Assembly: GCA_035533475.1 (NCBI GenBank)
Contig: DATLTS010000018.1
Span: forward strand, 1 to 64,000
Length of the DNA: 64,000 bases
DNA from: Mycobacteriales bacterium
Lineage (GTDB): Bacteria > Actinomycetota > Actinomycetes > DATLTS01
Direction: 5' to 3'
Both the position numbers and the translations under genes were made by a program. Positions 40,420 through 64,000 of this stretch are shown here, in pieces. Below the pieces are notes generated by a model, which saw only the letters and a list, made by a program, of their open reading frames with translations, did no database searches and was not told the DNA's origin. Each line of letters opens with the position of its first letter. The stretch's first letter is position 1.

Positions 40420-40479
40420 GTGGTTCCCTCGGATCGACGAAAGCTGCTCGGCCGGCCGACCGACGTCAGAATCCTGCCG

Positions 40480-40493
40480 CACGCGAAGTGCGG
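40480..40493 (-). other. Hairpin in the 5-prime region of the giant gene
   Basis: On the minus strand CCGCAC-ttcgc-GTGCGG (40493-40477) forms a stable hairpin about 60 bases before the start at 40419. It may be part of the leader; no known riboswitch pattern was seen. Confidence 0.3.
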
Positions 40494-40548
40494 TTCGCAG
40501 CCGTTTTGGCTGAACCGCGGGCTGGGCACGGGCGTCGGACCTGGCCTC

Positions 40549-40570
40549 GCCCGACGGTCATCCGTCGGCC
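40549..40570 (-). terminator. Hairpin after the 2,134-residue gene
   Basis: CCGACGG-atga-CCGTCGG, with flanking GC pairs, starts about 20 bases after the stop codon of the upstream giant gene. It lacks a U-run, so it may terminate only partly and let transcription reach the next gene. Confidence 0.45.
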
Positions 40571-40589
40571 CGGGCGCCAAGTCTCCTGC

Positions 40590-43500: not shown

Positions 43501-46500
43501 CCTGCGGTCGTATCCAGGTTCTGCAGGTCGCCGGAGACGGTCGTGGCAACTCCGAGGCTGTCGATCAGACCGTGGTTGACGAACGTCCCGCTCATCGTCC
43601 GCCCGGCGCTAGCCCATGAGGAGGTGTCCTGCGAGGTGATCGTCCCGCCGGCCGCGTTCGTGAACGTCGCCCCCGAACCAACCGACACCACCACCGCGTC
43701 GTTGAAGTACGTCTGGTCCAACACCAGGGTGCCGTCGTTGCTGAGCGAGTTCGGCACCGACAACGTCGTCGTCCCGGTGCTCCCGACCCCCAGGGCGTCC
43801 ACCGTGACCCCGGCCGGGATGTTCCCGTTTAGCGTGGGGCTCACCTCCACATCGACCTGCCCACACCCGGTCGTGCAACCCGCGAACGACCCCGGGAAGT
43901 TCAGCGTGCCCGAAGCCACCGTGATCGGGCTGCCAGTCACCTGGCCACCGTTCCAGTCCAACGTCGCGGTCCCAACCGAGATCCCGCCGCTGTTCGTCAC
44001 ACTCCCCGGATTGGACAGCGTCAGCGTGTCCGCGGCCTTGGTCGACGACAGCGTGGCACCCGAGCCGGTGGTCAACGTGCCGTCGCTGGCCAGCGAACCG
44101 GACCAGGACGTGTTCACGTCCACATTCAGCGAGCCGTCGTTGACGAACGTCCCGCTCAACGTCCGCCCGGCACTGCCATATGAGGCGGTGTCCTGCGAGG
44201 TGATCGTCCCGCCGGCCGCGTTCGTTAACTTCGCCCCCGAACCAACCAACACCACCACCGCGTCGTTGTAGTACGACTGGTCCAACAGCAGCGTGCCGTG
44301 GTTGCTGAGCGAGTTCGGCACCGACAACGACGTCGTCCCGGTGTTACCGATCCCCAGGGCATCCACAACCTGACCCGCCGGGATGCCCCCGGTCAGCGTC
44401 GAGCCTCCCTCCAGGTAGAAGGGAATACTCGCGGCGGTATGGCTTGCGAGGTCCAGCGTGCCGTTTAGGATCGTGAATCCGGACGCTGCATTCGCACCGG
44501 AGATCGTCCCACCTTGATAATCGAAGGTGGCGGCTTGAAGACTGAGCGTCCCGTCGACGACCAGACCGCCGCCGGCAGCCTGGGTAAATATCTGACCCGC
44601 CGCGAGGGTTAAGGACACTCCAGATTCGACGTCGAGTGAACCCCTGTTGATGAAGGACGTGCCCGTCGGCACGATCGAACTGGCGGTCGCAAAGTTGACT
44701 GCGCCCTGGTTGACGAAGGTACCGATCAGCGTCCGCCCCGCGCTAGCCCATGAGGAGGTATCCTGCGAGGTGATCGTCCCGCCGGCCGCGTTCGTGAACG
44801 TCGCCCCCGAACCAACCGACACCACCACCGCGTCATTGTTGTACCCCTGGTCCAACAGCAGCGTGCCGTAGTTCGTGAGCGAGTTAGGCACCGACAACGT
44901 CGTCGTCCCGGTGTTGGCGTTGTCCTTAGTCTCCACCGTGACCCCGGCCGGAATGTTCCCGGCTAATGTCGAGGTCCCATCCCCCACGTTCACCTGCCCA
45001 CACCCGGTCGAGCAGCCCGCGAACGACACCGGGAAGTTCAGCGTGCCGGAAGCCATCGTGATCGGACTACCAGACACCGTGCCACCGTTCCAGTCCAGCG
45101 TCCCGGTTCCGACCGAGATCCCGCCGCTGTTCGTCACACTCCCCGGAGCCGACAGCGTCAGCGTGTCCGAGCCGGCCGTTGCCGACAGTGCACCCCCACC
45201 GGTGGTCAACGTGCCGTCGCTGGCCAGCGAACCGGACCAGGACGTGTTCACGTCCACATTCAGCGAGCCGTCGTTGACGAACGTCCCGCTCAACGTCCGC
45301 CCGGCGCTGCCATATGAGGTGGTGTCCTGCGAGGTGATCGTCCCGCCGGCCGCGTTCGTGAACGTCGCCCCCGTACCAACCGAAACGGTCACCGCGTCGT
45401 TGTTGTACCCCTGGTCCAACAGCAGCGTGCCGTAGTTCGTGAGCGAGTTCGGCACCGAAAACGTCGTCGTCCCGGTGTTGGCGTTGTCCTTAGTCTCCAC
45501 CGTGACCCCGGCGGGGATGTTACCGACGAGCTTTGACGTCCCATCCCCCACGTTCACCTGCCCACACCCGGTCGAGCAGCCCGCGAAGGACCCCGGAAAG
45601 TTAATCGTGCCGGAAGTCAACGTGATCGGACTACCGGTCACCGTTCCGCCGTTCCAGTCCAGGGTCGTGCCGACCGTGGCCGTGCTGCCGACAGAGATCC
45701 CGCCGCTGTTCGTCACACTCCCCGGATTGGACAGCGTCAGCGTGTCCGTGGCGTTGGTCGACGACAGGGTCGCACCCGAGCCGGTGGTCAACGTGCCGTC
45801 GCTGGCCAGCGAACCGGACCAGGACGTGTTCACGTCCACATTCAGCGTGCCGTCGTTGACGAACGTCCCGCTCAACGTCCGCCCGGCACTGCCATATGAG
45901 GCGGTGTCCTGCGAGGTGATCGTCCCGCCGGCCGCGTTCGTTAACGTCGCCCCCGAACCAACCGACACCACCACCGCGTCGTTGAAGAACGACTGGTCCA
46001 ACAGCAGCGTGCCATCGTTGCTGAGCGAGTTCGGCACCGACAACGTCGTCGTCCCGGTGTTCCCGACCCCCAGGGCGTCCACGGTGACCCCGGCCGGGAT
46101 GTTCCCGTTCAGCGTGGGGCTCACCTCCACATCGACCTGCCCACACCCGGTCGTGCAACCCGCGAACGACCCCGGGAAGTTCAGCGTGCCCGAAGCCACC
46201 GCGATCGGGCTGCCGGTCACCTGGCCACCGTTCCAGTCCAACGTCGCGGTCCCAACCGAGATCCCACCGCTGTTCGTCACACTCCCCGGATTGGACAGCG
46301 TCAGCGTGTCCGAGCTGGCCGTCGACGACAGGGTCGCACCCGAGCCGGTGGTCAACGTGCCGTCGCTGGACAGCGCACCGGACCAGGACGTGTTCACGTC
46401 CACATTCAGCGAGCCGTCGTTGACGAACGTCCCGCTCAACGTCCGCCCTGCGCTAGCCCATGAGGAGGTGTCCTGCGAGGTGATCGTCCCGCCGGTCGCG

Positions 46501-46994
46501 TTCGTGAACGTCGCCCCGGTAGCAACCGACACCGTCACCGCGCCGCTGACATACGACTGGTCCAACAGCAGCGTGCCGCCGGCTGCCACCGTAGACCCGG
46601 TCAGGCTGGTGTTTCCGGTAAGGCTCAGGGTCAACTGACCGGTATTGTTTGGCTCGACCAGGTCAAGCGTCTGGCTTCCGGTGCCGCTGCCGGCCCCGAC
46701 AACTAACGCAAGTACCGACGTGCTGGCGTTGAGTGTGACCTTGTACGTACCGGCCGTAGTTATGCAGACCACGTCCGTGGGCCCCGGCACCATTGTGGTG
46801 CTCCAGTCTGAGGCGGTGGACCAGGATCCCCCAGAGGTATTCGTCCAGGTGTCCGTGCAGACGGGAGGAAGAAGAACGGCAGCGGCGTGCCCGGGTCGGA
46901 GGAACCAGCCGGCGACCAGCGCGGCGGCTAGGCAGAGCAGCACGACCCAGGCGCGGCGAACATGACGGAACTGACGGATCGCGATAGCTGCCAC
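40590..46994 (-). CDS. Giant secreted repeat protein (six 190-residue repeats, Fn3, IPT, DTR)
   Basis: About 2,134 residues. A basic N-terminus and helix AWVVLLCLAAALVAGWFL form a signal peptide. Residues about 145-1,130 hold six repeats of 188-194 residues; each opens with GTLLLDQ (or GTLVLDQ), then GGTITSQDT, RTLSGTFVNDG, NVDVNTSWSG, and most contain a Cys pair in SFAGC-x-TGCGQV. These read as beta-strand ladders like passenger domains of adhesins. A lower-complexity beta region, an Fn3 domain (near KPTAPTGLIASGGSGS), an IPT/TIG domain, a TEIDQISGNG module and three DTR modules follow. An extracellular adhesin or matrix protein is likely. The start is uncertain (46994 or as far as 47138). 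Confidence 0.82.
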   Translation of the reverse strand: MAAIAIRQFRHVRRAWVVLLCLAAALVAGWFLRPGHAAAVLLPPVCTDTWTNTSGGSWSTASDWSTTMVPGPTDVVCITTAGTYKVTLNASTSVLALVVGAGSGTGSQTLDLVEPNNTGQLTLSLTGNTSLTGSTVAAGGTLLLDQSYVSGAVTVSVATGATFTNATGGTITSQDTSSWASAGRTLSGTFVNDGSLNVDVNTSWSGALSSDGTLTTGSGATLSSTASSDTLTLSNPGSVTNSGGISVGTATLDWNGGQVTGSPIAVASGTLNFPGSFAGCTTGCGQVDVEVSPTLNGNIPAGVTVDALGVGNTGTTTLSVPNSLSNDGTLLLDQSFFNDAVVVSVGSGATLTNAAGGTITSQDTASYGSAGRTLSGTFVNDGTLNVDVNTSWSGSLASDGTLTTGSGATLSSTNATDTLTLSNPGSVTNSGGISVGSTATVGTTLDWNGGTVTGSPITLTSGTINFPGSFAGCSTGCGQVNVGDGTSKLVGNIPAGVTVETKDNANTGTTTFSVPNSLTNYGTLLLDQGYNNDAVTVSVGTGATFTNAAGGTITSQDTTSYGSAGRTLSGTFVNDGSLNVDVNTSWSGSLASDGTLTTGGGALSATAGSDTLTLSAPGSVTNSGGISVGTGTLDWNGGTVSGSPITMASGTLNFPVSFAGCSTGCGQVNVGDGTSTLAGNIPAGVTVETKDNANTGTTTLSVPNSLTNYGTLLLDQGYNNDAVVVSVGSGATFTNAAGGTITSQDTSSWASAGRTLIGTFVNQGAVNFATASSIVPTGTSFINRGSLDVESGVSLTLAAGQIFTQAAGGGLVVDGTLSLQAATFDYQGGTISGANAASGFTILNGTLDLASHTAASIPFYLEGGSTLTGGIPAGQVVDALGIGNTGTTSLSVPNSLSNHGTLLLDQSYYNDAVVVLVGSGAKLTNAAGGTITSQDTASYGSAGRTLSGTFVNDGSLNVDVNTSWSGSLASDGTLTTGSGATLSSTKAADTLTLSNPGSVTNSGGISVGTATLDWNGGQVTGSPITVASGTLNFPGSFAGCTTGCGQVDVEVSPTLNGNIPAGVTVDALGVGSTGTTTLSVPNSLSNDGTLVLDQTYFNDAVVVSVGSGATFTNAAGGTITSQDTSSWASAGRTMSGTFVNHGLIDSLGVATTVSGDLQNLDTTAGALTGGTFEANNGTLTLPASSPVTDNEATVELVNGGNLLDASGAQLLTLATNGGTLSLNHATLVLSGGLTNTGNVSLLDGGTLTAPSYSQSGSGAVTDINQPSGTTTSTLNLGSGTFSLGGGVLSGDGQVSGTVDNSGGTVEPGSGTPHQIGTFTVSGAYSQGSGGTLDVNIAGAGSNDQLSAASSSLGGNSQIFNAAGYLPAEGATFPVVAGNPGSTSFATVDGRVLSPSEDYDVVYDSSGAHLVAVTKPTAPTGLIASGGSGSVTIGFSQPTDNGGSAITQYTVALTEGTNTVTCTVIPTSPTASQSFSCTNPTTGTSSTATQTSATASPSGQKYTVTWTGLLYSTKYPIAVSASNDDFTGPSASSSATTLAPPFTGPTPSVTGLSPTSGPITGGTPVKITGSGFTGATSVVLADTPAKSFAVVSDSEIDAVSPAIGGAGPVYVTVTTPGGSSAAVPAAEFTYVTEIDQISGNGSSTSSYGGQTLTGAGSGDAITTGFYSGNPQTASPSFTSSGVYFDVKVSSGSQNLAISLCPPGTDGSVLDYYDSATGQYASVSPPAVYVPGSGGASPCLNWTASGTSTPTLASLTGTVFAVGIAGYVPETPQRLLDTRPTSRIGSIAGPLAAGHDAAITVAGMDGVPSDAVAVALNVTAVNPAGAGNLRVYPDGASLPNASTVNYVPGQGTANFAVVQLPADGKIDVYSAGSASNVVIDVVGFYTSASGLHPQAPVRAIDTRYGTGTTAGTLAAGKTYGFTVTGADGVPIGAAAVLVNVTAIGPSSGGNLRVFPDGAAVPNASSINYVAGQTHAVFDVVQLPADGKIDVVSAGSPVNLAIDVVGYLDSTATLATQTPVRVLDTRPGTDHVGTLNGPLAAGTGYAVKIAGTGNVPSNASAVLLSVTAIGPSTGVGNLRVYPGDASAPNASTLNYAGPSAIANFVIVRLSSTGTINLESSGSSVNVALDVLGWYPGG
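42113..42376. repeat. 264-bp segment duplicated at 37641-37904 (copy 2)
   Basis: The partner of 37641-37904; both encode the IPT/TIG domain (VTGLSPTSGP, then GGTPVKITGSGFTG). Most differences are silent third-base changes. Confidence 0.8.
43569..46577 (-). repeat. Six tandem coding repeats of about 564-582 bp
   Basis: GTLLLDQ codon anchors occur at 46557-46577, 45993-46013, 45411-45431, 44847-44867, 44277-44297 and 43713-43733, giving unit lengths 564, 582, 564, 570 and 564 bp; the sixth unit is partial. Units 1 and 5 are almost identical over about 290 bp (43741-44032 against 46021-46312). Unit 4 is divergent in its middle. Confidence 0.9.
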
Positions 46995-47195
46995 CGCTGG
47001 GCCCCCGCACCTGTGATTCCACCGGAAGCGAAGCCCGCTTCCGAGTGCAGCGCCGACTATCACAGGGCTTGCCGCATTTCGGCGCTCGTACAGGAAACAA
47101 TGAGCCGAACGTTTGCTCAAGCAGCCTGTTCTGACCACGCACGCCTGGTTACGAGTGACCAGGTGGCGAACACCCGAACGCCGGCCGACTCCCGA
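46995..47195. other. Leader region upstream of the repeat protein
   Basis: Two hairpins are visible on the minus strand: CCTGGT-n8-ACCAGG (near 47140) and GGAAGC-gggcttc-GCTTCC (near 47030). They may be leader structure. I could not match them to a c-di-GMP or c-di-AMP riboswitch. Confidence 0.35.
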
Positions 47196-52077: not shown

Positions 52078-53466
52078 TCAGGGCTTCCCGGCCAACTCGG
52101 GGACGAGAAGCGCCGCGTCGACCGTGCCCAGGCCGGTCGCCAGGTTGTAGCCCGGACCGGCCTGGAAGCCGGTGACGGTGACCATCCGGCCGCCGGCCCC
52201 GACGAAGGACACGGTGTTGTCGCCACGGGTCACCGGGACGAGGCCGGGCGCGTGCTCGGCGCCGAGCCGGTAGAGCGCCGGATTGAGCAACCCGAGGTCG
52301 TGCCCGGCCAGCTGGTCGGCGATGGCCACGATGCCGGCGAGCAGCGGGCAGGACTCGCTGGTCCCGTTGATGGCGACGAAGCCGGGCGCCGCCGGCGCCG
52401 CCCCGGGGGCGCCCGGCACCGGGTAGCCGAGGTACACGAGGACGCTGCCCCGCCCCGCCGCGGACAGCGAGATGTCCGGGATCCCGCGGTGCGTGCCGAC
52501 GATTGCGGCGACCCCGTTCTGGTAAGCGGGCCGGGAGAACACCTTCGACAGACCGCCGCTGCTCGCCGCTGGTCCGCTCCTCGGGCTGGTGTCGTTCCAC
52601 ACGCTGTCCGGCGCGAGCCGGCGGCCCCGGGCGTCCAACTGCAGGTAGGTGCCGCCGACCGCGGTGACCAGCGGGTCGGTCGCCGGCCAGCCGGTCGCCC
52701 GGTAGGGGTAGTAGTGGACCGCGTCGTACTCGAGCCCGGCGGCGCCGGAGTCCCCGCTCGACGCCAGCACGCTGACCCCGTGCGCCGCGGCGTTGACAAA
52801 GGCACTGCGGAAGCTCAGCAGCGACGCCGGGCTCGGGAAGGTGTCTTCGGTGGCGTCGAAGCTCTGGCTGATCACGTCACCGAGCCGGTGGTCGACGACG
52901 TAGTTCTCGGCCGCCACGATCTGCGGGAATCCGGAGGTCCCCTCGATCTCGGCGACCGGCGTCTCGACGAGCAGCAGGTTGGCTCCCGGAGCCATCGCGT
53001 GCGCCCATTGCACATCCAGCGACGTTTCGGCCGCCGACCCGAGCACCTCCGAACCCTTGGGGTCGAACTTGGGGATCGGGCCGGCCGGCGCGATGATCCG
53101 GAACGAAGGCGGGTCCGGCAGGTGGAACGCGAGGTCGAAGACCTTGAGGTCGGCCGCCACGGTCGGCGACCCGAACGGGTCGACGATGACGATCGTGCGC
53201 CCCGCCCCGGTCAGCCCCCGGGCGAGCAGCGGGCCCAGGTCGTAGGCCGCCTGAAGCTGCTGGGGGTCGTAGCAGTCCACTCCGAACCAGCGTTCGCACT
53301 GCGCGGCGGTCGGGGGCACCGGGACCGGGCCGGTGGGGGCCGGTAGCGGGCTGGCGCTCGGGGGGACCGACGGCGGCGCCGGCCGGGGCGCTGCAACCGG
53401 TGAGCTCGAGCAGCCGACGACCGCGGCGAGCAGGCCCACCGCGAGGAGTCTCGGCCGGCTGATCAC
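52078..53466 (-). CDS. S53 family (sedolisin) serine-carboxyl peptidase
   Basis: The 462-residue protein has a lipoprotein-type signal (VVGC, Cys19), a Pro/Ser-rich linker, then the S53 catalytic domain: TAGYDPQQ-like start (CYDPQQLQAAYDL), the Glu/Asp pair in AAETSLDVQWAHAMAPGA, SFDATEDTFP, ASSGDSGAAGLEYD with the oxyanion Asp, and the Ser in NGTSESCPLLAGIVA, followed by the Ca-binding region GFQAGPGYNLATGLGTVD. No pro-domain is evident, unlike many sedolisins. It should be an acid-tolerant surface peptidase. TACGGT sits 7 bases before the GTG. Confidence 0.9.
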   Translation of the reverse strand: MISRPRLLAVGLLAAVVGCSSSPVAAPRPAPPSVPPSASPLPAPTGPVPVPPTAAQCERWFGVDCYDPQQLQAAYDLGPLLARGLTGAGRTIVIVDPFGSPTVAADLKVFDLAFHLPDPPSFRIIAPAGPIPKFDPKGSEVLGSAAETSLDVQWAHAMAPGANLLLVETPVAEIEGTSGFPQIVAAENYVVDHRLGDVISQSFDATEDTFPSPASLLSFRSAFVNAAAHGVSVLASSGDSGAAGLEYDAVHYYPYRATGWPATDPLVTAVGGTYLQLDARGRRLAPDSVWNDTSPRSGPAASSGGLSKVFSRPAYQNGVAAIVGTHRGIPDISLSAAGRGSVLVYLGYPVPGAPGAAPAAPGFVAINGTSESCPLLAGIVAIADQLAGHDLGLLNPALYRLGAEHAPGLVPVTRGDNTVSFVGAGGRMVTVTGFQAGPGYNLATGLGTVDAALLVPELAGKP

Positions 53467-53541: not shown

Positions 53542-54690
53542 ATGGCGACGCTCGACACACTGGAGACTTCCGCGGCCCCCGGACCCCCGGCGCGGCTGCG
53601 GGATCGACTGTCCGGGCCGGAGTGGCGAAACCTCGGCGCGATGTTCGGCGTCATCATCGTCCTGCACGTGCTGGGGTTCACCCTGCTCTTCGCGGCGGCA
53701 ACCGGTCGCTACCACCTGGACGCGAAGACGACGTTCGGGATCGGCACCGGCATCCTCGCGTACACCCTCGGCCTGCGGCACGCCTTCGACGCCGACCACA
53801 TCTCGGCGATCGACAACACCACGCGCAAGCTGATGGCCGAGGGGAAGCGACCGCTCGGGGTCGGCTTCTTCTTCTCGCTCGGGCATTCGAGCGTCGTGTT
53901 CGCGCTGGCCGTACTGCTCAACTTCGGCATCAAGGCGCTGAACTCGCAGGTGAAGAACAACACCTCGGGGCTGCACCACTACACCGGGCTGATCGGCACC
54001 ACGGTGTCCGGCTCGTTCCTGATGCTGCTCGCGATCCTGAACATCGTCGTCCTGGTCTCGATCGTCAAGGTCTTCCTCGAGCTGCGCCGCGGCCGCTACG
54101 ACGACGAGGAGCTGGAGCGGCAGCTGAACAGCCGCGGCCTGATGAACCGGTTCTTCGGCCCGCTGGCCCGATCGGTCGACACCAGCTGGAAGATGTACCC
54201 GATCGGGGTCCTGTTCGGGCTCGGTTTCGACACCGCGACCGAGGTCGCCCTGCTCGTGCTCGCCGGCTCGGCGGTGGCCGGCGGCCTCCCGTTCTGGGCG
54301 ATCCTCTCCCTGCCGATCCTGTTCGCCGCCGGGATGAGCCTGCTCGACACGATCGACGGGTCGTTCATGAACTTCGCCTACGGGTGGGCGTTCTCCAGGC
54401 CGGTCCGCAAGGTGTACTACAACATCACGATCACCGGTCTCTCGGTCGCGGTGGCGCTGTTCATCGGCGGCCTCGAAGTGGCGCAGGTGCTCTCCCAGCA
54501 GCTCAACCTGACCGGCGGATTCTGGAACTACGCGCAGGGCTTCAACATCAACCACGCCGGCTTCGTCATCGTCGGCATGTTCATCGCGGTCTGGGTGATC
54601 GCCCTCGCGGTCTGGCGGTACGGCAAGGTCGAGGCGCGCTGGGAGACCGCCGCGACCCGGGCCCGGGAATCCGGCTCTAGCCGGGCCTGA
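53542..54690 (+). CDS. NiCoT family nickel/cobalt permease (HoxN/NixA)
   Basis: The 382-residue permease has about eight helices and the metal signature H80-A-F-D-A-D85-H86 in GLRHAFDADHISAIDN, then FSLGHSSVVF (111-120) and GLGFDTATEVALL, all diagnostic of HoxN/NixA/NhlF transporters. It imports Ni or Co ions at high affinity. GGAGGG precedes the ATG. A Nur-box-like site lies upstream. Its end overlaps the convergent ABC gene by 14 bases. Clients could be urease, hydrogenase or Ni-superoxide dismutase; none is in the window. Confidence 0.95.
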   Translation: MATLDTLETSAAPGPPARLRDRLSGPEWRNLGAMFGVIIVLHVLGFTLLFAAATGRYHLDAKTTFGIGTGILAYTLGLRHAFDADHISAIDNTTRKLMAEGKRPLGVGFFFSLGHSSVVFALAVLLNFGIKALNSQVKNNTSGLHHYTGLIGTTVSGSFLMLLAILNIVVLVSIVKVFLELRRGRYDDEELERQLNSRGLMNRFFGPLARSVDTSWKMYPIGVLFGLGFDTATEVALLVLAGSAVAGGLPFWAILSLPILFAAGMSLLDTIDGSFMNFAYGWAFSRPVRKVYYNITITGLSVAVALFIGGLEVAQVLSQQLNLTGGFWNYAQGFNINHAGFVIVGMFIAVWVIALAVWRYGKVEARWETAATRARESGSSRA

Positions 54691-55468
54691 CCGCCGGTCG
54701 CCGGGCCGGTTTGCGCCGGGACAGACCCGAGGAGAGGTCGCCGCGGAGCAGCCGCCCCACCCCGAGGTGGGTCGCCAGCGTCGTCTCGTCGAGGTCGGCC
54801 ACGCCGCCGCGGTAGACGATCCGGCCGCGCTGCAACAGGCAGGCGGTGTCCGCCAGGCGCAGCCCGAACCGGATGTTCTGCTCGACGAGCAGCATCGTGA
54901 CGCCGGTTTCCTGCACCAGCAGCAGCGCCTCGAGCAACTCCTCGACGATCGCCGGCGCGAGACCCGCGGAGGGTTCGTCGATCAGCACGAGCTGCGGGTT
55001 CGCCACCAGAGCCCGGGCGACGGCGAGCGACGCCTGCTGCCCGCCGGAGAGGGTCCCGGCAGCCGCGTCGCGCTTCGCGGCGAGCAGCGGGAACGTCTCG
55101 TAGGCGGCGGCGACCCGGCCGGCGAGCTCCGCCTTGCGGCCACGCATCGGATAGCCGCCGATACGCAGGTTCTGCTCGACGGTCAGGGAGCCGAACACCT
55201 GCCGACCCTGCGGGACGTGCCCCATGCCGAGCGCCACCCGCTGCTCCGGGCCGGACCGGGTGATGTCGTGACCGGCGAAGACGATCTGGCCGGCCCAGGC
55301 CGGGACGAGGCCGGCGACGACCTTGAGCAGGACGCTCTTGCCGGCGCCGTTGAGGCCGAACAGGCCGGTGACCGAGCCGCGGGGCACGGCCAGGTCCACG
55401 CCGTGGATGACGGTCTGGGCGTTGAATCCGGCACGGATGCCGGTCAGCTCGAGGAGCGGTTCGCTCAT
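54677..55468 (-). CDS. livF: Branched-chain-type ABC transporter ATPase LivF
   Basis: A 263-residue ATPase: Walker A GLNGAGKSVLL (about residue 36), HVPQGRQVFGSLTVEQNLRIG, signature LSGGQQASLAVARALV, Walker B LVLIDEPSAGLAP. The QGRQVF and PSAGLAP motifs are typical of LivF. With the LivG half it powers import of small carboxylic substrates. Its ATG overlaps the stop of the LivM-LivG gene (ATGA). It is the last gene of the leftward operon. Confidence 0.93.
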   Translation of the reverse strand: MSEPLLELTGIRAGFNAQTVIHGVDLAVPRGSVTGLFGLNGAGKSVLLKVVAGLVPAWAGQIVFAGHDITRSGPEQRVALGMGHVPQGRQVFGSLTVEQNLRIGGYPMRGRKAELAGRVAAAYETFPLLAAKRDAAAGTLSGGQQASLAVARALVANPQLVLIDEPSAGLAPAIVEELLEALLLVQETGVTMLLVEQNIRFGLRLADTACLLQRGRIVYRGGVADLDETTLATHLGVGRLLRGDLSSGLSRRKPARRPAVRPG

Positions 55469-57309
55469 GCCGGCACCGCCGCCGCCCCGAAGTAGGCCGC
55501 GATGACCCCCGGGTCGGCGGTCACCTCGTCGGGAGCCCCCTCGGCGATCAGCCGGCCGGCGTCGAGCACGTAGACGTGGTCGCACGTGTCGAGGACCAGG
55601 GGGATGTTGTGCTCGATCAGCAGGACCGTCCGGTCGAGGACGTCGCGCAGGTCGCGGAGCCGCTCGGCCAGGCTCTCCGCCGCGGCCGGCGCCATCCCGG
55701 CCGAGGGCTCGTCGAGCAGGACGAGATCGGGGGCGGTAAGGAGCAGCGCACCGATCTCGACCAGCCGCTGCTGCCCGCCGGACAGGTTGCGCATCGGGAT
55801 GCGGGCGTGGCTGGTCAGGCCGAGCGCCTCGATCGCCTGGTCCGCCCGGGCCGCGAGCTCCCGTTCGCGCCGGGCCGCCCGGGGCAGCAGGAACAAGGCC
55901 TCGAGGTCGCCGTATCCGGCCAGCGGATGCTGGGCGAGCAGGAAGTTCTCCCGGACCGAGAGCTCCTTGGCCAGGCCGATCTGCTGGAAGCTGCGGGCGA
56001 TCCCGCGCCGGGCCCGCTGATCGCAGCGCAACTGCTGGATCGGCCGGCCCTGGAAGTTGATCACCCCGCTCTGGGTGCGCACCAGGCCGGAAACGGCGTT
56101 GAACAGGGTGGACTTGCCGGCCCCGTTGGGCCCGATCAGCCCGGTGATCCGGCCGCGCGCGACGGTGAGGCTAACTTGATCGACGGCCACGAGCCCACCG
56201 AAGCGCACGGTGAGGTTCTCGACGGCCAGGACGGTCTCGCCGGCAAGGACGGTCTCGCCGGCCAGCCCGCCGCCGCTGCGGACGCCGGGCGGCAGCGAGA
56301 GCCGGGGCAGCTCGGGCAGCGCCAGGTCCGCCTCGTCGTCGTCGGCGCGGTCGCGGCGGCGGGGGCCATGGGGCACGAACAGGTCCGCGATGCCGTCCGG
56401 GTGCAGGGCGAGGGTGAGCATGAGGAGCAAGGAGCCGATGACCGGGGCCCAGTCCGCCGACAGGTGCAGCACGGGGGGCAGGATGAAGAAGGAGAAGCCC
56501 GCGACCGCGACGGCCACCCGGCGGCCCTGGCCACCGACGACGACGGCCGCGACGAGCACCAGCGACTCCTTGAACTGGAAGGTCTCGCCGTTCACGAACA
56601 GGAACGTGTGGCAGTACAGCGCGCCGGCGAGGCCGGCCATCCCGCCGGAGGTGGCGAAGGCGAACAGCTTGTAGCGGACGACGCTCACACCGAGCGACTG
56701 GGCAACCGACTCGTTCTCCTTGATCGCCCGGAAGGCGCGGCCGAGCCGGGTGCGGACGACGTTGCCGTCCACCGCCCACACCAACAGGAACCCGACCAGG
56801 CAGACGGCGAGGTAAACGCCGTTGCTGACGATGTAGTGGCTGCCCCACAGGCGGCGCGGCAGCGCCACGCCGGCGGACCCGCGGGAGAGCAGCTCGCTGT
56901 CGAACACGCCGTACTGCATGGCGGTGGCGAAGGCGAGGGTGACGACCGCGAGGTACATGCCACTGAGGCGGAGCGCGACGATGCCGAGGATCGCCGCGAC
57001 CAGGCTGGCGACGACGATGGACAGCGCGAGTCCGACGAACATCGGGAGGTCGGCCCGGGAGGTGATGAACCCGCTGGTGAACGCGCCGACCCCGAGCAGG
57101 GCACCGTGCCCGAGCGAGAGCTGCCCGGTGTAGCCGAGCAGCAGGTTGAGGCTGAGCGCCCCGATCGCGAAGGCGGTGGCCAAGCAGAGGGTCTGGTACT
57201 GGCGACCGGTGAGCAGGTTCGGCATCGCCGCCTGGGTAAGGATCGGCAGGGCGATCAGCAGGGCGGCCGCGATCGCCAGGTTCGCCCGGCGCCCCCAGGC
57301 CCCGCTCAT
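55465..57309 (-). CDS. LivM-LivG fusion: permease and ATPase of branched-chain-type ABC transporter
   Basis: The 614-residue protein joins two subunits. Residues about 1-310 form a LivM permease (ALSLNLLLGYTGQLSLGHGA, GMYLAVVTLAFATAMQYGVF, RAFRAIKENESVAQSLGVSV, GGMAGLAGALYCHTFLFVNG). After an acidic and Pro-rich linker comes a LivG ATPase (about 355-610) with Walker A GPNGAGKSTLFNAVSG, FQQIGLAKELSVRENFLLAQ, signature LSGGQQRLVEIGALL and Walker B LVLLDEPSAGMAP. Such LivM-LivG fusions occur in actinobacteria. Its ATG overlaps livH by 4 bases. Confidence 0.93.
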   Translation of the reverse strand: MSGAWGRRANLAIAAALLIALPILTQAAMPNLLTGRQYQTLCLATAFAIGALSLNLLLGYTGQLSLGHGALLGVGAFTSGFITSRADLPMFVGLALSIVVASLVAAILGIVALRLSGMYLAVVTLAFATAMQYGVFDSELLSRGSAGVALPRRLWGSHYIVSNGVYLAVCLVGFLLVWAVDGNVVRTRLGRAFRAIKENESVAQSLGVSVVRYKLFAFATSGGMAGLAGALYCHTFLFVNGETFQFKESLVLVAAVVVGGQGRRVAVAVAGFSFFILPPVLHLSADWAPVIGSLLLMLTLALHPDGIADLFVPHGPRRRDRADDDEADLALPELPRLSLPPGVRSGGGLAGETVLAGETVLAVENLTVRFGGLVAVDQVSLTVARGRITGLIGPNGAGKSTLFNAVSGLVRTQSGVINFQGRPIQQLRCDQRARRGIARSFQQIGLAKELSVRENFLLAQHPLAGYGDLEALFLLPRAARRERELAARADQAIEALGLTSHARIPMRNLSGGQQRLVEIGALLLTAPDLVLLDEPSAGMAPAAAESLAERLRDLRDVLDRTVLLIEHNIPLVLDTCDHVYVLDAGRLIAEGAPDEVTADPGVIAAYFGAAAVPA

Positions 57310-58190
57310 CCGGAGGTCCGCAGGCCGACGGCGATCCGGGGCCACAGCTGCCGGGCCAGCAGGACGAGCAGGATGATCACCAGCATCGCGATCGACTGCA
57401 CGCCGGCCAGCTTCGTGGTCAGCGGGTGGGCGGTGAAGAAGGCCTGCGCGATCCCCACGATGAGACCGCCGGCCACGGCCCCGGGGAGGCTGGACAGGCC
57501 GCCGATGACGGCGGCGGTCAGCCCGAACAGCAGCAGGCTGCCGAAGACGCCGGGAGCGATCTCCCCGATCGACGGCTCGATCAGCAGGGCGGCCAGCCCG
57601 GCGAGCAGGCCGGCGGTGGCCCAGGTGAAGCGGCTCACCCGGGCCTGCGAGATGCCCATCAGCCGGGCCGCCACCGGATCGTCGGCGAAGGCGCGGACCG
57701 CGAGCCCGAAGCTCGTGTAGCGGAAGAAGAGGGTCAGCACGACGGTGACGACCAGCACGACGATCAGGGACAGCCAGTAGCTCGGCAGGATGACGACGCC
57801 GGCCAGCGAGAAGCTCCCGGTGGTCAGCGGCGGGGCCAGCTGCCGCGGCGACGGTCCGAACCACAGCGCCTCCAGACCGACCAGTCCGGAGAGCAGTCCC
57901 ACCGTGGCCACCGCCACGGCCACCCGGGGCGCGGAGATCATCCGGCGGATGACGACCTCCTCGAACGCCAGCGAGATGGCCACCGAGACGACCAGTGCGG
58001 TCAGCGCTCCGAGCACCCACGGCAGGTGGTGCTCGGTGACCACGAAGGTCGCCGGGTAGAGCGCGAACGTGCCGATCTCGGCCTGCGCGAAGTTGATCGC
58101 CGACGAGGTCTTGTAGACCAGCGTGATCCCGAGCGCGTACAGGGCGTAGATCGCGCCACTGACGACCCCGAAGATCAGGATTTCGGCCAT
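57306..58190 (-). CDS. livH: Branched-chain-type ABC transporter permease LivH
   Basis: A 294-residue permease with eight helices: VVSGAIYALYALGITLVYKTSSAINFAQAE is the LivH signature, then GLAVRAFADDPVAARLMGIS (the coupling loop to the ATPases) and GGLSSLPGAVAGGLIVGIAQ. It pairs with the LivM half. Two bases separate it from the substrate-binding protein gene upstream. Confidence 0.94.
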   Translation of the reverse strand: MAEILIFGVVSGAIYALYALGITLVYKTSSAINFAQAEIGTFALYPATFVVTEHHLPWVLGALTALVVSVAISLAFEEVVIRRMISAPRVAVAVATVGLLSGLVGLEALWFGPSPRQLAPPLTTGSFSLAGVVILPSYWLSLIVVLVVTVVLTLFFRYTSFGLAVRAFADDPVAARLMGISQARVSRFTWATAGLLAGLAALLIEPSIGEIAPGVFGSLLLFGLTAAVIGGLSSLPGAVAGGLIVGIAQAFFTAHPLTTKLAGVQSIAMLVIILLVLLARQLWPRIAVGLRTSG

Positions 58191-58192
58191 CG

Positions 58193-60727
58193 TCAGCTGA
58201 CCGACGACACGCAGCGGTCGATCGGGATCCACGCCGCGTTGCCCTGCGGGTCGCGCACCACCATGTCGGCGTCGGTGAGGTAGCCGCCGTGGTGGTGGTC
58301 GCCCTGGCTGAAGTCGACGTCGCAGTTCGGCGGCACGGTCCGGTGGTAACCGGCGAGCAGGATGCCGGCCATCCGGTTGCGCGTGCAGTTCGGCCCGCAC
58401 TCGAGGAACAGGTCGCGGATCCCGCGTTGCGCCTCCCAGTTGAGAAACAGCAGGTCACCGCCGTCCCCGCCCAGGTTCGCTCCCGGGTCGTAGGCCTTGT
58501 ACTCCCGGTTGAACTCGAGGATGTCGCTCGTGTAGGACGAGTACGGGCCGCCCGACCAGGTGCTGTCGTAGGGGTCCCAGGCGGCGATCCCGTAGAGCGG
58601 CTGCTGGAGCGCGGCCGCGCCGAGCGTCTTGATCGTGAGGTTGAACGGGAAGACCAGCCACGAGGGGTAGTACTTCTGCCCCTCGGCCTGCTGGATCATC
58701 TCGGTCGCGGCGAGCGCGTTCTCCAGGGCGAAGACGGCGGTCACCCCGGCGGTCTTGAGCTGGAACAGATCCTGGGTGTAGTTGCCCTGGTTGATCTGGA
58801 CCGGGTAGTCGAAGACCTGCACCCCGGCGGCGCGCAGCATCTGCTCGAAGATGTCCCGCGCCGGCTGCCAGTTCGGGCTGTCCCGCCAGATCACACCCAC
58901 CTTCTGGCCGCGGAACTTCGCCAGCGCGAGCTGTCCGAACCAGGTGCCCATCTGCTCGAGCGTGGGCAGGGCGGTGAAGCTGTAGTGCAGTCCGGCCGAC
59001 CCCTCCACGGTGGCGATGTGGTGCAGGTAGAGCTCGTGGTTCTGCTCGGCCCAGACCCGCACGGCCGGGATCTGGTCGAATCCGATCCCGCCGAGCAGCA
59101 TGAACGTGCCGGCGTCCTTGCAGGCCTGTGCCGCCTGCACGGCGGTCCCCGGGTCGTAGTTGTCGTTCTGGTAGCTGGCGTTCACCGTGCGCCCGTACAC
59201 GCCGCCGTGGGCGTGGATGTAGTCCCAGTACACGTTCAGGTCGCTCGCCTTGATGTCGAACGCCTGACCGTAGGTGAGGGCGGCGTGCGCGCACAGGGTG
59301 ATCTGCTTCGCGGTGATGCCGATCGTGTCGTCGGCGCCGGAGTACATCTGGGCCACCGGCGGGCCGCCGTTGGACGGGAAGAAGACCCGGACGCCGTCGA
59401 TGGTCTCGTAGTGCCCCGGCCCGGAGAACTCGCTGGCCTGGGCCGCCGTCGACGACGCGGTGGTCGGGGCACCGACCGACGAGGAGCCAGCCGCCCCGGT
59501 GACGGCCACTCCGGTGACGGCGCCGGTCGCGGTCCCGGACCGGGCGCCGGGCCCCGCGCTGGCACTCGCGGTGGGCCCGGGCGCGGGCCCGCCGTTCAGG
59601 GCGGTCGACGGCGACCCGGTCGCGGCGACGGTTCCGATCGTCGGCCTGCTCTGGTCGAGGGAGTACCCGGAGTACACGAGTCCCCAGACCACGGCGACCG
59701 ACGCGACCGAATAGGCCCGCGGATGGGCCCGGAACGCGGCAACCGACGGCGGGCCGACCTTGGCCGCGAAGGCGGACAGCCTGGCCGGGACGAAGCGCAG
59801 CTGGTCGCGGTGCGCGGTCGCGATCGCGCCGGCCCCGACCAGGAGGCAGCCGAGCAGGACCCAGGGCCACCACACGGTGCCGCCGCCGCGCGAAGCCGGC
59901 GCAGCCGGGGCGGCGGCCGCCGGTGCCGGGGCGGGCGGGGCGAGGCTCGGCGCCGGGCTGGTGCCGGGCGGCGCCACCGCCGCCTGGCTGGTCGCAACGC
60001 TGGCCGGCGGCGGCGCGGGCACCGGCGCGGGTGCCCGGGTCACCGCAGATGCGCCCGGGACCGGTGCCAGGGTCGCGGGCGTCACCGGGGCGGCGGGCGC
60101 TGCCGGGGTCGCCGGGAACTCGTACTCGGCTACCGCGGTAGTCAGGCTGACGTAATACGCGACGGCCCAGGCGTCCGACGGGCCGGACGAGATCGGGATG
60201 AGGACGAGCCCGGTGTTGCCGTGCACCCGCCAGTACCCGACGAGCTCACGCAGGTCGAAGACCCAGGTGTCGTAGGCGGCGTTCGGCTTGCCGATCGCGG
60301 AGCCGTGCGCGCAGTCGTAGGCGGGGGCATTCGAGGCGGTCAGGCTCGCCGGGATCGGATGGACGAGGGCGCAGGCCTCCACGATCGCCGAGCTGGGATT
60401 GACGTTGTAGACCTGGTAGACGCTGGTGTTCGACGCGCCCGACTGATTGGTGAGGTGGAAGGTCGCAACGAGGTCGAGCGGGACCGCCCCGGCGGGCAGG
60501 TAGTCGAGCGCGAAGTGCACGTAGGAGCGGGCCAGTTCCTGGCCGGCGTTCACCGAGACGTGGATGGAGGAGGGGTCGCCGTTGTAGGGATCGACGGGAG
60601 AGTCGGTGACGTAAGACTGCCGGTCCGGCGGAATCGCGCTGGAGTCGGGTGCGGCGACCGCGGTGGTCGCGAGGCCGGAGAACAGTCCGACCGCGAGCAG
60701 TCCGCTCGCCAGGGTGCGCCTCTTCAT
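58193..60727 (-). CDS. Two-TM substrate-binding fusion protein (surface domain plus Peripl_BP_6 domain)
   Basis: An unusual 844-residue protein. A signal peptide (1-26) is followed by a beta-rich domain (27-205) resembling DNRLRE carbohydrate-binding modules (RSYVHFALDYLPAGAV, TWVFDLRELVGYWRVHG). A Pro/Ala linker leads to a membrane helix (285-304), a basic loop of about 35 residues, a second helix (340-356), a Ser/Gly/Thr linker and a Peripl_BP_6-type ligand domain (from about 468 to the end: ITLCAHAALTYGQAFDIKAS, YQNDNYDPGTAVQAAQACKD, LLGGIGFDQIPAVRVW). Both large domains should face outwards. It lies before livH and is the receptor of the ABC system. AAGGGG precedes the ATG. Confidence 0.85.
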   Translation of the reverse strand: MKRRTLASGLLAVGLFSGLATTAVAAPDSSAIPPDRQSYVTDSPVDPYNGDPSSIHVSVNAGQELARSYVHFALDYLPAGAVPLDLVATFHLTNQSGASNTSVYQVYNVNPSSAIVEACALVHPIPASLTASNAPAYDCAHGSAIGKPNAAYDTWVFDLRELVGYWRVHGNTGLVLIPISSGPSDAWAVAYYVSLTTAVAEYEFPATPAAPAAPVTPATLAPVPGASAVTRAPAPVPAPPPASVATSQAAVAPPGTSPAPSLAPPAPAPAAAAPAAPASRGGGTVWWPWVLLGCLLVGAGAIATAHRDQLRFVPARLSAFAAKVGPPSVAAFRAHPRAYSVASVAVVWGLVYSGYSLDQSRPTIGTVAATGSPSTALNGGPAPGPTASASAGPGARSGTATGAVTGVAVTGAAGSSSVGAPTTASSTAAQASEFSGPGHYETIDGVRVFFPSNGGPPVAQMYSGADDTIGITAKQITLCAHAALTYGQAFDIKASDLNVYWDYIHAHGGVYGRTVNASYQNDNYDPGTAVQAAQACKDAGTFMLLGGIGFDQIPAVRVWAEQNHELYLHHIATVEGSAGLHYSFTALPTLEQMGTWFGQLALAKFRGQKVGVIWRDSPNWQPARDIFEQMLRAAGVQVFDYPVQINQGNYTQDLFQLKTAGVTAVFALENALAATEMIQQAEGQKYYPSWLVFPFNLTIKTLGAAALQQPLYGIAAWDPYDSTWSGGPYSSYTSDILEFNREYKAYDPGANLGGDGGDLLFLNWEAQRGIRDLFLECGPNCTRNRMAGILLAGYHRTVPPNCDVDFSQGDHHHGGYLTDADMVVRDPQGNAAWIPIDRCVSSVS

Positions 60728-61830
60728 CGGTGACCCCTTCCTGGACAGCCGTCCCCGAGCTGGTGAGAGAGGAAAAAGTCCACGCTGGCCTGGGTCACGT
60801 CCGGGCCCAACGGGTCGGTGTACGGGCCGTCCCCCGGCGAGTCGGGATAGGCGTGCTCCATCCCGTAGATGGCCCAGAGGTCGACCAGGTCGCAACCGCC
60901 GGCATCGGTGAAGTGGGAAACCGAGTACGGGTAGCTGCCCCGGAAGCCGATCGCCCCGCCCGGGCAGGTCCAGCTGTCGTTGTGGATGCAGAGGTCCCCG
61001 CTCCCCGGGGCCGGGGTCTGGCCGAACCCGTAGGTCGTGGTCGCCGCCGGGGTCCGCGGCACGGCCGGGCTCACCGGCGAACCGGTCTCGACCAGGCTGT
61101 CCACGCCGAGCCAGGACTGGACCAGGCCGGCGGCGAGCGGGAGCGGGTTGACCGTGTCGGCGCTGCCGTTCTCGACGAAGAGCGGGACCAGCCGGGCCCG
61201 CGGGCCCATCGCCTCGTACGCGAGCCGGCCGGTGGCGTCGGCGCAGGCGGCGTACGCGCAACCGGCGATCACCCCCGCGGCGGCGAAGACGTCCGGGTAG
61301 GCCGCGGCGAGGATCACCGACATGTCGGCGCCGGCCGAGATGCCCTCGACGTACACCCGGCGCGGATCCCCGTGCTCGGTGTCGACGACCCACTGGGCCA
61401 GCCCGGCGATCGTCGACGCCTCGCCGCTGCCGCGCACCTGGTCGGCCGGGAGGAACCAGTTCCAGCAGCCGATGCCGTTGCCGTCGGCGAGCGGCGCGGT
61501 GCTCGGCGCCGTCACGTTCTGCTGCGGGTAGACGACGACGAAGTCCCGCTGGTCGGCCAGCTCGTCGAGGCGGGTGGCCGCGGCCGCCTGGACCGCGGTC
61601 TGGTTGCAGCCGTGCAGGAACCCGACGACCGGCCGCGGTGCCGAGCGGTGCCCCGGCGGCACGTAAAGCCAGTACTGCCGGGCGCCCGGCGCGCCCTGCG
61701 CCGGGTAGTACCCGGAGGTGAAGGAGCCGGAACCGGCGGCACCGGCACCGGCGGCACCGGCGGGCAGCGCGGCGAGCGCCGTGCCGGCAAGGGCGATCCC
61801 GAGCAGCAGCCGGAGCGGACGGGTGCTCAT
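60724..61830 (-). CDS. Secreted PHB-depolymerase-like esterase
   Basis: The 368-residue protein has a signal peptide (about 1-27) and an alpha/beta hydrolase of the PHB depolymerase/LpqC (feruloyl-type esterase) family: oxyanion HGCNQTA (73-79), nucleophile Ser165 in EGISAGADM, Asp in ENGSADTVNP and His in GMEHAYP. Substrates of the family are polyhydroxyalkanoate, acetyl or feruloyl esters. It overlaps the acyl-CoA synthetase and the binding-protein genes by 4 bases each, so it is part of the uptake operon and probably frees the imported acid. Confidence 0.88.
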   Translation of the reverse strand: MSTRPLRLLLGIALAGTALAALPAGAAGAGAAGSGSFTSGYYPAQGAPGARQYWLYVPPGHRSAPRPVVGFLHGCNQTAVQAAAATRLDELADQRDFVVVYPQQNVTAPSTAPLADGNGIGCWNWFLPADQVRGSGEASTIAGLAQWVVDTEHGDPRRVYVEGISAGADMSVILAAAYPDVFAAAGVIAGCAYAACADATGRLAYEAMGPRARLVPLFVENGSADTVNPLPLAAGLVQSWLGVDSLVETGSPVSPAVPRTPAATTTYGFGQTPAPGSGDLCIHNDSWTCPGGAIGFRGSYPYSVSHFTDAGGCDLVDLWAIYGMEHAYPDSPGDGPYTDPLGPDVTQASVDFFLSHQLGDGCPGRGHR

Positions 61831-63422
61831 TCGCCGAACCGGGCCCGCAGGGCCAGCTTGTCGAACTTGCCGACCGAGGTCCGCGGGACCTCGCCGATCA
61901 GCTCGACCCGGTCCGGTAGCTGCCAGCGGGCGAACCCGGCGCCGAGCAGATGCTCGTGCACCTCGGCGAGGGTGACGGTGGCGCCGGAGGTGGCCACGAT
62001 GGCGGCGAGCGGGCGTTCCAGCCACTTGGGATCCGGGATGGCGACGACCGCGGCCTCGAGCACCCCCGGCATCGCCATCAGGGCGGCCTCCATGTCGACC
62101 GATGAGATCCACTCGCCACCGGACTTGATCAGGTCCTTGGTGCGGTCCGCGATCCGGAAGTAGCCGTTCGGCGACCCGACCGCGACGTCGCCGGTCGCGA
62201 ACCACCCGGCCTCGAACTGCTCGGCGCCGGCGCCGTGCAGGTAGGAGTCGACGACCCACGGGCCACGGACGAACAGCCGGCCCATCGCCGCGCCGTCCCA
62301 CGCCAGGTCCTCGCCCCGCTCGGAGCGGATCGCGAGGTCGATCGTCGGCAACGGCAGGCCGGCCTGGCAGGCCGCCTCGCTGACCATCTGCTCGGCGGGG
62401 TAATCGGCCATCCGGTGCTTCGGCCAGGCGACGCTGGCCAGCGGCGAGGTCTCGGTCATCCCCCAGGCCTGAAGGATCGGGATGCCGAACTCGCTGCGGT
62501 ACCGCTCGATCAGCGCGCGCGGCGGTTGGGCGCCGCCGCAGACGATGTGGCGCAGGCGCGGCAGCCCGCCGCCCCGCCGGCGCAGCTCGTCGGCGGTTTC
62601 CAGCCAGATCGTGGGCACCCCGGCGGTCACGGTCACCTGCTCCTCGGCGAGCAGGTCGACGAGCAGCCGGGGCTCGAACGGGCCGGCGAGGAACACCTGT
62701 TTGGCGCCCATCATGGTGGCCGCGTGCGGCGCCCCCCACGCGTTGGCGTGGAACATCGGAACCACCGGCAGGACACAGTCGCTCGGACCGATCGCCAACC
62801 CGGCTCCGGAACTCACCCCGAGCGCGTGCAGCACCGAGGACCGGTGGGTGTAGACGACCCCCTTCGACCGTCCGGTGGTACCCGACGTGTAGCAGATCCC
62901 GAAGGGTGCGGACTCCTCGATGTCCGGCCGCGGGTAGGTGGCCGGCTGGGTGGCGAGGAGATCGTCGTAAGAGATCAGATGGGGTAGATCCGAATCGGGA
63001 ACCTCGCCGAACACGACGATCTGCCGGACCCCGTCGAGGAACCCGGCACCGCGCGCCTTTTCCAGCAGCGGAACGAGATCCGCGTCGACCAGGATCACCT
63101 GGTCGCCCGCATCGTCGACGATGTAGCCGAGCTCGTCCGGCGACAGGCGCAGGTTCAACGTGTGCAGGACCCGACCGGCACAGGTCACCCCGAAGTAGGC
63201 CTCGAGATGGCGGTAGCTGTTCCAGGCCAGCGTGCCGACCGCCGCGCCGGGCGCCACGTCGAGCGCCTCGATCGCGTTCATCAGCCGGGTCGCCCGGACC
63301 GCGAAGTCGCCGTAGGTGTAGCGATGGCGCCGACCGTCCGCCCAACCGGTGACGATGTCGACGTCGCCGAAATGCCGCGCGGCGTGGTCGAACATGGTCC
63401 ACGCGTTGAGCGGCATCTCCAT
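61827..63422 (-). CDS. Acyl-CoA synthetase (AMP-dependent)
   Basis: The 531-residue enzyme is a member of the long-chain and medium-chain acyl-CoA ligases: P-loop FGICYTSGTTGRSKGVVYTH, WGMTETSP, AGWFATGDVA, RTKDLIKSGGEWISSVD and the C-terminal lysine motif SVGKFDKLALR. It activates a carboxylic acid to its CoA ester with ATP. No CoA-ligase specificity can be read. It is coupled to the secreted esterase gene by ATGA overlap. The start may be ATG 63422 or GTG 63425. Confidence 0.92.
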   Translation of the reverse strand: MEMPLNAWTMFDHAARHFGDVDIVTGWADGRRHRYTYGDFAVRATRLMNAIEALDVAPGAAVGTLAWNSYRHLEAYFGVTCAGRVLHTLNLRLSPDELGYIVDDAGDQVILVDADLVPLLEKARGAGFLDGVRQIVVFGEVPDSDLPHLISYDDLLATQPATYPRPDIEESAPFGICYTSGTTGRSKGVVYTHRSSVLHALGVSSGAGLAIGPSDCVLPVVPMFHANAWGAPHAATMMGAKQVFLAGPFEPRLLVDLLAEEQVTVTAGVPTIWLETADELRRRGGGLPRLRHIVCGGAQPPRALIERYRSEFGIPILQAWGMTETSPLASVAWPKHRMADYPAEQMVSEAACQAGLPLPTIDLAIRSERGEDLAWDGAAMGRLFVRGPWVVDSYLHGAGAEQFEAGWFATGDVAVGSPNGYFRIADRTKDLIKSGGEWISSVDMEAALMAMPGVLEAAVVAIPDPKWLERPLAAIVATSGATVTLAEVHEHLLGAGFARWQLPDRVELIGEVPRTSVGKFDKLALRARFGE

Positions 63423-63432
63423 CACCGGGTGC

Positions 63433-64000
63433 TCACCGGCCGCACGATTCCGCGAACTCGACTACGGCGTCCGCAACGACGGACGCGCCGGGATCGCCCA
63501 ACGCGATCGTGTAGTGCGTGGTGCCCGGAACCACCCGATGCTCGAACGCGGAGACCAGACCGGCGCATTCGTCGACGACGTCGTCGGTCATCAGCGGCGG
63601 TTGCCCGGGCGCCATCCCCTCCGCGGCCCGCAGCAACAGGACCGGCACCGCCAACCCGGCGAGCCGCCGGCGCAGGACCGCGGTGTCCATCGCGTCCAGC
63701 GAGTCGGCGCGGACGGCCGCCGCGGAGGCCTTCGGCTGGAGCCGCGGCGCCTCCCCGCCGAGGTCGTAGCCGAGATAGGCCTCGACCCACGGCCCCCAGC
63801 GACCGCCGCGGAACGTCGGCAGCTCCCGCCAGAACTGGTAGTACTCCTCCAGGCTGCCGAACGTCTGGCTCAGGCGGCCGACCTGGGCGGAGAGCAGCGC
63901 CTCGAGCAGATCGTCGACGTCGATCCCCGGCGGCGGGTCGAGCGGCGGTCCGCCGTCGATCAGCACCAGGCCGGCGACGAGCTCCGGGAACTCGGCGGCG
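63433..64000 (-). CDS. Alpha/beta hydrolase, N-terminal part outside the window
   Basis: The frame is open to the window edge; the visible 188 residues are the C-terminal part of an alpha/beta hydrolase: ELVAGLVLIDGGPPLDPPPG after the nucleophile strand, a helical cap (GSLEEYYQFWRELPTFRGGR), PVLLLRAAEGMAPGQPPLMT with the acid strand, and the catalytic His in RVVPGTTHYTIALGD. The nucleophile elbow lies further upstream, beyond the window. It is 10 bases from the acyl-CoA synthetase and belongs to the same operon, perhaps hydrolysing an intermediate ester. Confidence 0.85.
   Translation of the reverse strand, partial: AAEFPELVAGLVLIDGGPPLDPPPGIDVDDLLEALLSAQVGRLSQTFGSLEEYYQFWRELPTFRGGRWGPWVEAYLGYDLGGEAPRLQPKASAAAVRADSLDAMDTAVLRRRLAGLAVPVLLLRAAEGMAPGQPPLMTDDVVDECAGLVSAFEHRVVPGTTHYTIALGDPGASVVADAVVEFAESCGR

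Follow-up and report, generated by a model that had tools for sequence, protein, structure and literature searches.

The window analysed here comprises the first 64000 bases of the 181567-base contig C18, part of a genome of 3.27 Mb, and carries on its minus strand seven genes descending from position 63433, the stop of the first, to 54677. In order of transcription, these encode an alpha/beta hydrolase (63433-64000, running past the window to about C18:64329), an acyl-CoA synthetase (61827-63422), an esterase resembling PHB depolymerases (60724-61830), a membrane-tethered receptor (58193-60727), a LivH-type permease (57306-58190), a LivM-LivG fusion joining permease and ATPase in a single frame (55465-57309), and a LivF-type ATPase (54677-55468). 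All assignments were backed by Pfam and NCBIfam. A first-pass annotation of the same DNA had described seven leftward genes, mostly overlapping by four bases, which was borne out: all seven lie where it placed them, four of the six junctions are 4-base ATGA overlaps (61830-61827, 60727-60724, 57309-57306 and 55468-55465), and the other two (hydrolase/synthetase and receptor/LivH) are gaps of a few bases. The downstream neighbour of LivF is a nickel transporter gene on the opposite strand (53542-54690). Elsewhere in the window, positions 52078-53466 encode a secreted lipoprotein-like serine peptidase, possibly sedolisin-like, with a weak match to Peptidase_S8 (23.5 bits), and within positions 36508-47138 are two leftward frames, both very long (about 1324 and 2182 aa), for apparently secreted proteins. 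An Rfam search of the 64 kb window returned no RNA.

The receptor and the last three genes account for the complete part list of a Liv/HAAT transporter, with two BPD_transp_2 permeases (101 bits for LivH, 122 bits for the LivM part), two ATPases (ABC_tran, 112 bits for the LivG part and 98 bits for LivF) and a LivK-type receptor, the Pfam scores all exceeding the cut-off. The equivalog scores fell short of the cut-offs for LivH (92 of 379 bits), LivG (231 of 362) and LivF (165 of 441). The LivM-LivG fusion was also found in the related operons L060 and L064.

A divergent TetR gene (about C18:64453-65151) faces the hydrolase just beyond the window edge. The gap between the two contains a pair of CGAACG-NN-CGTTCG-like palindromes (4347-4360 and 4430-4443 of L009; C18:64346 and 64429), namely CGAACGCCCGTTCG and, 83 bases apart from it, a second site with two mismatches. 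Two sites near CGAACGNNCGTTCG (0-2 mismatches) are present in the TetR-operon gap of this genome and in those of L060, L064 and L085, where the paired sites are spaced by 78 to 122 bases. The exact palindrome is absent from the 64 kb window and occurs once in a 20 kb region surrounding the start of the operon, where chance alone would give 0.25 matches with no more than 1 mismatch. The pair presents itself as candidate TetR operators. The nearest solved relative of the TetR protein was Mce3R, with KstR2 further down the match list. Both are repressors of lipid catabolism or uptake genes, and this kinship makes an acyl-CoA effector plausible.

Enzymes of the operon

The esterase was matched by Pfam Esterase_PHB (91 bits, above cut-off) and by NF050058, the model for short-chain PHA depolymerases of type 1 (209.5 bits, cut-off 150), to which the orthologous esterases of L064 and L060 scored 217 and 218 bits, respectively. 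Its closest solved relative was 8daj (E 1e-42), titled PHB depolymerase family esterase, which we take to be the PHB depolymerase of Lihuaxuella thermophila; the next were the feruloyl esterase 8iy8 and then an acetylxylan esterase. The residues S165 (within GISAG), D225, H326 and C75 (within HGC) align with those of 8daj and were found to be invariant across the orthologue alignment. The hallmarks of type-1 PHA depolymerases given in a review (PMC11893044) are accordingly all present, i.e. a mid-sequence lipase box of the form G-(L/I)-S-(A/S)-G, Ser-Asp-His and an oxyanion Cys. The same review also credits the Lihuaxuella enzyme with activity on polylactate and polycaprolactone. A signal sequence predicts secretion, and the 367 residues comprise a catalytic domain only, with no linker or polymer/substrate-binding domain detected by Pfam or NCBIfam. 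When the window's own genome was searched with the esterase, the single match was the esterase itself.

The synthetase matched Pfam AMP-binding (234 bits, above cut-off) and exceeded the cut-off of PRK06187 (509 bits, cut-off 476), placing it in a subfamily of long-chain fatty acid CoA ligases. Its nearest solved relative was the long-chain acyl-CoA synthetase 1ult (467 bits, E 9e-139), followed by the AMP-binding protein 6ihk. The longest frame of the hydrolase (stop at 63433) extends to C18:64407, with a likely ATG at about C18:64329. The protein has a GHSMGA nucleophile box, no signal peptide, and a match of the whole gene (in L009) to Abhydrolase_1 (75 bits), and belongs to no specific family; orthologues occupy the same operon position in L064 (65% seq. 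id.) and L060 (35%).

One reading of these enzymes is a locus dedicated to PHB or short-chain PHA, in which the esterase would depolymerise PHB, 3-hydroxybutyrate or its oligomers would be imported, the hydrolase would split the oligomers and the synthetase would activate the monomer. Besides the NF050058 score and the proximity to 8daj, this reading gains from the Lihuaxuella PHB depolymerase having a Ser-His-Asp triad and an oxyanion Cys (PMC11893044), all found in the window esterase, and from the unrelated lipase that replaces the esterase in two sister operons (L076 and L077), for which the best NCBIfam match was PhaZ7. However, that match reached just 56 and 47 bits against a cut-off of 450, the window esterase lacks a linker or polymer-binding domain, and its superfamily also includes the feruloyl and acetylxylan esterases. 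The synthetase resembles long-chain ligases, and a search of five genomes for 3-hydroxybutyrate dehydrogenase gave many SDR matches, none over the cut-off. We therefore regard a dedicated PHB locus as unlikely.

The receptor and its likely ligands

Behind its signal sequence, the receptor has an N-terminal domain, which an Ala/Pro-rich linker joins to a first membrane helix; then come a basic loop, a second hydrophobic stretch that is less pronounced, another linker and the binding domain (about residues 430-844). This order would place both domains outside the cell. The first-pass annotation had proposed a Peripl_BP_6 receptor with two transmembrane helices; in the hydropathy profile the first helix was clear and the second weaker. 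The weak stretch aligns with a clear helix in the orthologue of L062, and a helix is found at the corresponding place in that of L085. The N-terminal domain scored below the cut-off of the DNRLRE model (NF033679; 22.9 bits, E 7e-5, cut-off 34), and its structural model was too poor for a structure search (pLDDT 47). The binding domain matched Peripla_BP_6 (76 bits, above cut-off). Orthologues of the same architecture are encoded in L060, L064, L063 and L085, whereas the L062 protein lacks the N-terminal domain and begins at the first helix. Elsewhere in the window's genome, on C53 (L059 9335-13314), a similar N-terminal domain (28% seq. id.) with one membrane helix forms a separate gene, adjoining fused LivH-LivM and LivG/LivF-like genes. 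With its two parts thus found apart, the receptor seems to have arisen by the joining of two types of membrane protein that existed before it, and the C53 arrangement points to Liv systems with additional surface domains as a broader class. In another part of the same genome (C45; L015 6700-13082), genes for a LivK-type receptor and LivHMGF follow that of a secreted 397-aa protein without a Pfam family; this receptor and that of the window have a GG-x-G-x-DQI motif in common.

In alignments, the ligand-binding Ser of amino-acid-type LivK proteins was found to be replaced in the window receptor (GGIGFDQIPA), and the Thr of the Ala-Thr motif was retained there and lost in L062; the genome's own amino-acid-type LivK paralogue on C25 retains both SGA and SAT. 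We take this ligand-contacting Ser and the Ala-Thr motif to be features of LivK proteins that bind amino acids. A model of the binding domain of medium confidence (pLDDT 73) had 4n03 as its best solved fold (E 2e-14), deposited as a fatty acid ABC transporter substrate-binding protein, and also matched many LivK folds, with binders of amino acids and of aromatic acids among them. The aromatic-acid binders, together with the rank of the feruloyl esterase 8iy8 as second-best solved relative of the esterase, would fit uptake of hydroxycinnamate or other aromatic acids from plant cell-wall esters, and the LivK-family protein CouP, encoded beside a CoA ligase, binds coumarate and ferulate (PMC3610893). 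Nevertheless, the operon has no aromatic-degradation genes, and the closest kin of its synthetase are fatty-acid rather than coumarate ligases, making an aromatic role improbable.

Conservation of the gene set in related genomes

The genus, family and order of the source are represented by this genome only, and relatives were drawn from its class and from GTDB contigs. A scan of the GTDB contigs with a single protein gave no matches, and one with a two-sequence alignment gave six loci. Orthologues were found in metagenome-assembled genomes named Frankiales, Frankiaceae and, in one case, Acidimicrobiia, as well as in class relatives. In four further genomes (L060, L064, L062 and L063), the receptor gene directly adjoins that of the esterase or is parted from it by the synthetase alone. 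L060 and L064 comprise the divergent TetR, hydrolase, esterase, receptor, LivH, LivMG and LivF, with no synthetase in the operon. In L062 (on the same contig as L049), an esterase with a C-terminal membrane anchor is followed by receptor, LivH, LivM and the contig end, and in L063 the order is esterase, synthetase (65% seq. id.), receptor and contig end. The L063 contig is labelled Acidimicrobiia yet carries genes close to those of the Frankiales-type operon, as would arise from horizontal transfer or mis-binning. Directly after LivF in L060, an opposite-strand tRNA-Phe is followed by a Lipase_2-type gene (8720-9927; 45% seq. id. to the L077 lipase), which may be a second esterase; it was excluded as an operon member because of the intervening tRNA.

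Two further relatives show the transporter in other company. In L085 (genome G119), TetR and hydrolase genes are divergent from receptor-LivHMGF with no esterase beside them, the esterase of G119 being located elsewhere, and in L065 the stretch covered has receptor-LivHMGF followed by a different synthetase. A CoA ligase, a TetR, a DUF2236-like protein and a PHB-type esterase are consecutive in another part of G119 (L107 2883-6930), this row having no Liv genes. None of the other inspected esterase loci (L101-L107, some on short contigs) had the gene beside LivH or LivM, and for most members of the esterase family no Liv genes are close by. Among 297 genomes of the class, the receptor was found in 7, a strong esterase match in 13 and both in 5, for which the hypergeometric P is about 1e-6 if relatedness is ignored.

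Since adjacency or near-adjacency of esterase and receptor recurs in four further genomes, the linkage of esterase and transporter is not accidental; chance linkage was rejected on the conserved gene order, the co-occurrence count and the shared palindromes. Esterase, receptor and Liv genes, the combination that the first-pass annotation advised looking for, are linked in L060, L064 and L062, with esterase-synthetase-receptor in L063, which disposes of the objection raised there that esterase and transporter might never be linked. The same data bear on the reading as an ordinary branched-chain amino acid transporter, cotranscribed by chance with unrelated lipid enzymes. LivHMGF homology and the amino-acid binders among the receptor matches would suit it, but the linkage persists across family boundaries, together with a common regulator and palindromes, and the receptor has lost the ligand-binding Ser that the C25 Liv set keeps, so that we consider it highly unlikely.

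The sister operons L076 and L077 encode a lipoprotein-type receptor, LivHMGF, a regulator-like gene (L076), synthetase, hydrolase and a secreted Lipase_2-type esterase. Their synthetases and hydrolases share 41-43% and 35% sequence identity with the window proteins, respectively, and the secreted lipase (Lipase_2, 78 bits), unrelated to the window esterase, occupies the role of the latter in the operon. More distantly, L108 has an esterase of 31% identity beside a different Liv set with a different receptor. With its genes named by eye, this large, catabolic-looking cluster (L108 1-19001, genome G108) comprises Liv genes, a PHB-type esterase, a DUF2236-like gene, P450, SDR, aldehyde dehydrogenase, a CoA-transferase-like gene and a CoA ligase. 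Its P450, SDR, aldehyde dehydrogenase and CoA-transferase-like genes, and the TetR matches to Mce3R and KstR2, would accord with a complex lipid substrate (a steroid, terpenoid or cutin/suberin-type ester) feeding a scattered pathway. Such a substrate has little probability, as P450/SDR-type enzymes are absent from the window operon and L108 differs in its receptor and has only a distantly related esterase.

Proposed route and comparison with known systems

Starting from the observed genes and their conserved order, the catalytic residues, the layout of the receptor and the palindromes kept among relatives, we infer all activities and the substrate, and the whole locus is probably a TetR-controlled ester-scavenging operon. 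The secreted serine esterase would act outside the cell and cut a hydrophobic ester or polyester. The membrane-held receptor, with both domains outside, would keep substrate or products near the cell through its N-terminal domain, a weak step because the model of that domain was unusable, and would bind the released acid or short oligomer through its Peripla_BP_6 domain. LivH, LivMG and LivF would then import the ligand, the cytoplasmic hydrolase would split leftover ester bonds, and the synthetase would form a CoA ester for beta-oxidation. The acid or its CoA ester may free the divergent TetR repressor from the two palindromic operators.

The most likely substrates are (poly)esters of hydroxy-alkanoates or fatty acids rather than amino acids, given the lost receptor Ser, the title of the fatty-acid binder 4n03 and a synthetase near long-chain ligases. 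PHB itself is possible and ranks next with aromatic esters and complex lipids, amino acids coming last. The evidence singles out none of PHB, feruloyl esters and fatty-acid oligomers, the substrates suggested for growth tests in the first-pass annotation. Its idea that the products of the operon cut, bind, import and activate an ester is upheld in outline, since a scheme of secreted esterase, tethered capture, Liv import and CoA ligation fits best, with the linkage, the shared TetR and palindromes, the Ser loss, 4n03 and the sister lipase operons in its favour. An obligatory role of synthetase or esterase is not supported, however, as the operons of L060 and L064 lack the former and the latter is missing beside the L085 transporter; these cases, the many family esterases away from Liv genes, and the variety of LivK folds, amino-acid binders included, matched by the medium-confidence receptor model count against the full scheme. 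More speculatively, and on balance doubtfully, this could be an actinobacterial polyester-utilisation locus, in which esterase, tethered two-domain receptor and Liv importer act as one surface machine, much like polysaccharide utilisation loci, with depolymerases interchangeable between clades (PHB-type here, lipase/PhaZ7-like in the sister) and the TetR sensing the CoA product.

Little has been described of how bacteria take hold of what their secreted polyester depolymerases release; a recent review of PHA breakdown states that the products enter the cell, yet has no word starting with "transport" (PMC11893044). A conserved operon linking a depolymerase-like esterase, receptor, importer, CoA ligase and regulator offers a concrete, testable uptake route, and would aid the re-annotation of some "branched-chain amino acid" transporters and supply candidate esterases for polyester recycling. 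Our non-exhaustive literature search found no paper on the esterase-receptor-Liv set or on a transporter of this kind combined with a PHB depolymerase.

Several known systems resemble parts of the locus. The window esterase is like the type-1 short-chain PHA depolymerases (NF050058; Lihuaxuella thermophila) in its predicted secretion, Ser-Asp-His, Cys oxyanion and mid-sequence GISAG box, and unlike them in having no linker or substrate-binding domain and in being part of a transporter operon. The hca cluster of Acinetobacter baylyi also combines non-cytoplasmic ester cleavage, import and CoA ligation, with a different esterase and an MFS importer. In Rhodopseudomonas palustris, fatty, dicarboxylic and aromatic acids are ligands of LivK-family proteins, some of which are encoded beside CoA ligases, and the RPA3723/RPA3724 ABC system, with binders of fatty and dicarboxylic acids, adjoins the acyl-CoA ligase operon pimFABCDE; a secreted esterase and a tethered fused receptor, as here, are not described in the part of that report drawn on (PMC3223731). 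The CouPSTU cluster of the same organism likewise groups a LivK-family receptor, acid import, a CoA ligase and a regulator, which senses the CoA ester; it differs in handling aromatic acids and in having a MarR where a TetR is found here, and the word "esterase" is absent from that paper (PMC3610893). Liv-type uptake of fatty or aromatic acids beside CoA ligases is thus already known, and what is new is the linked depolymerase-like esterase together with the fused, tethered receptor.
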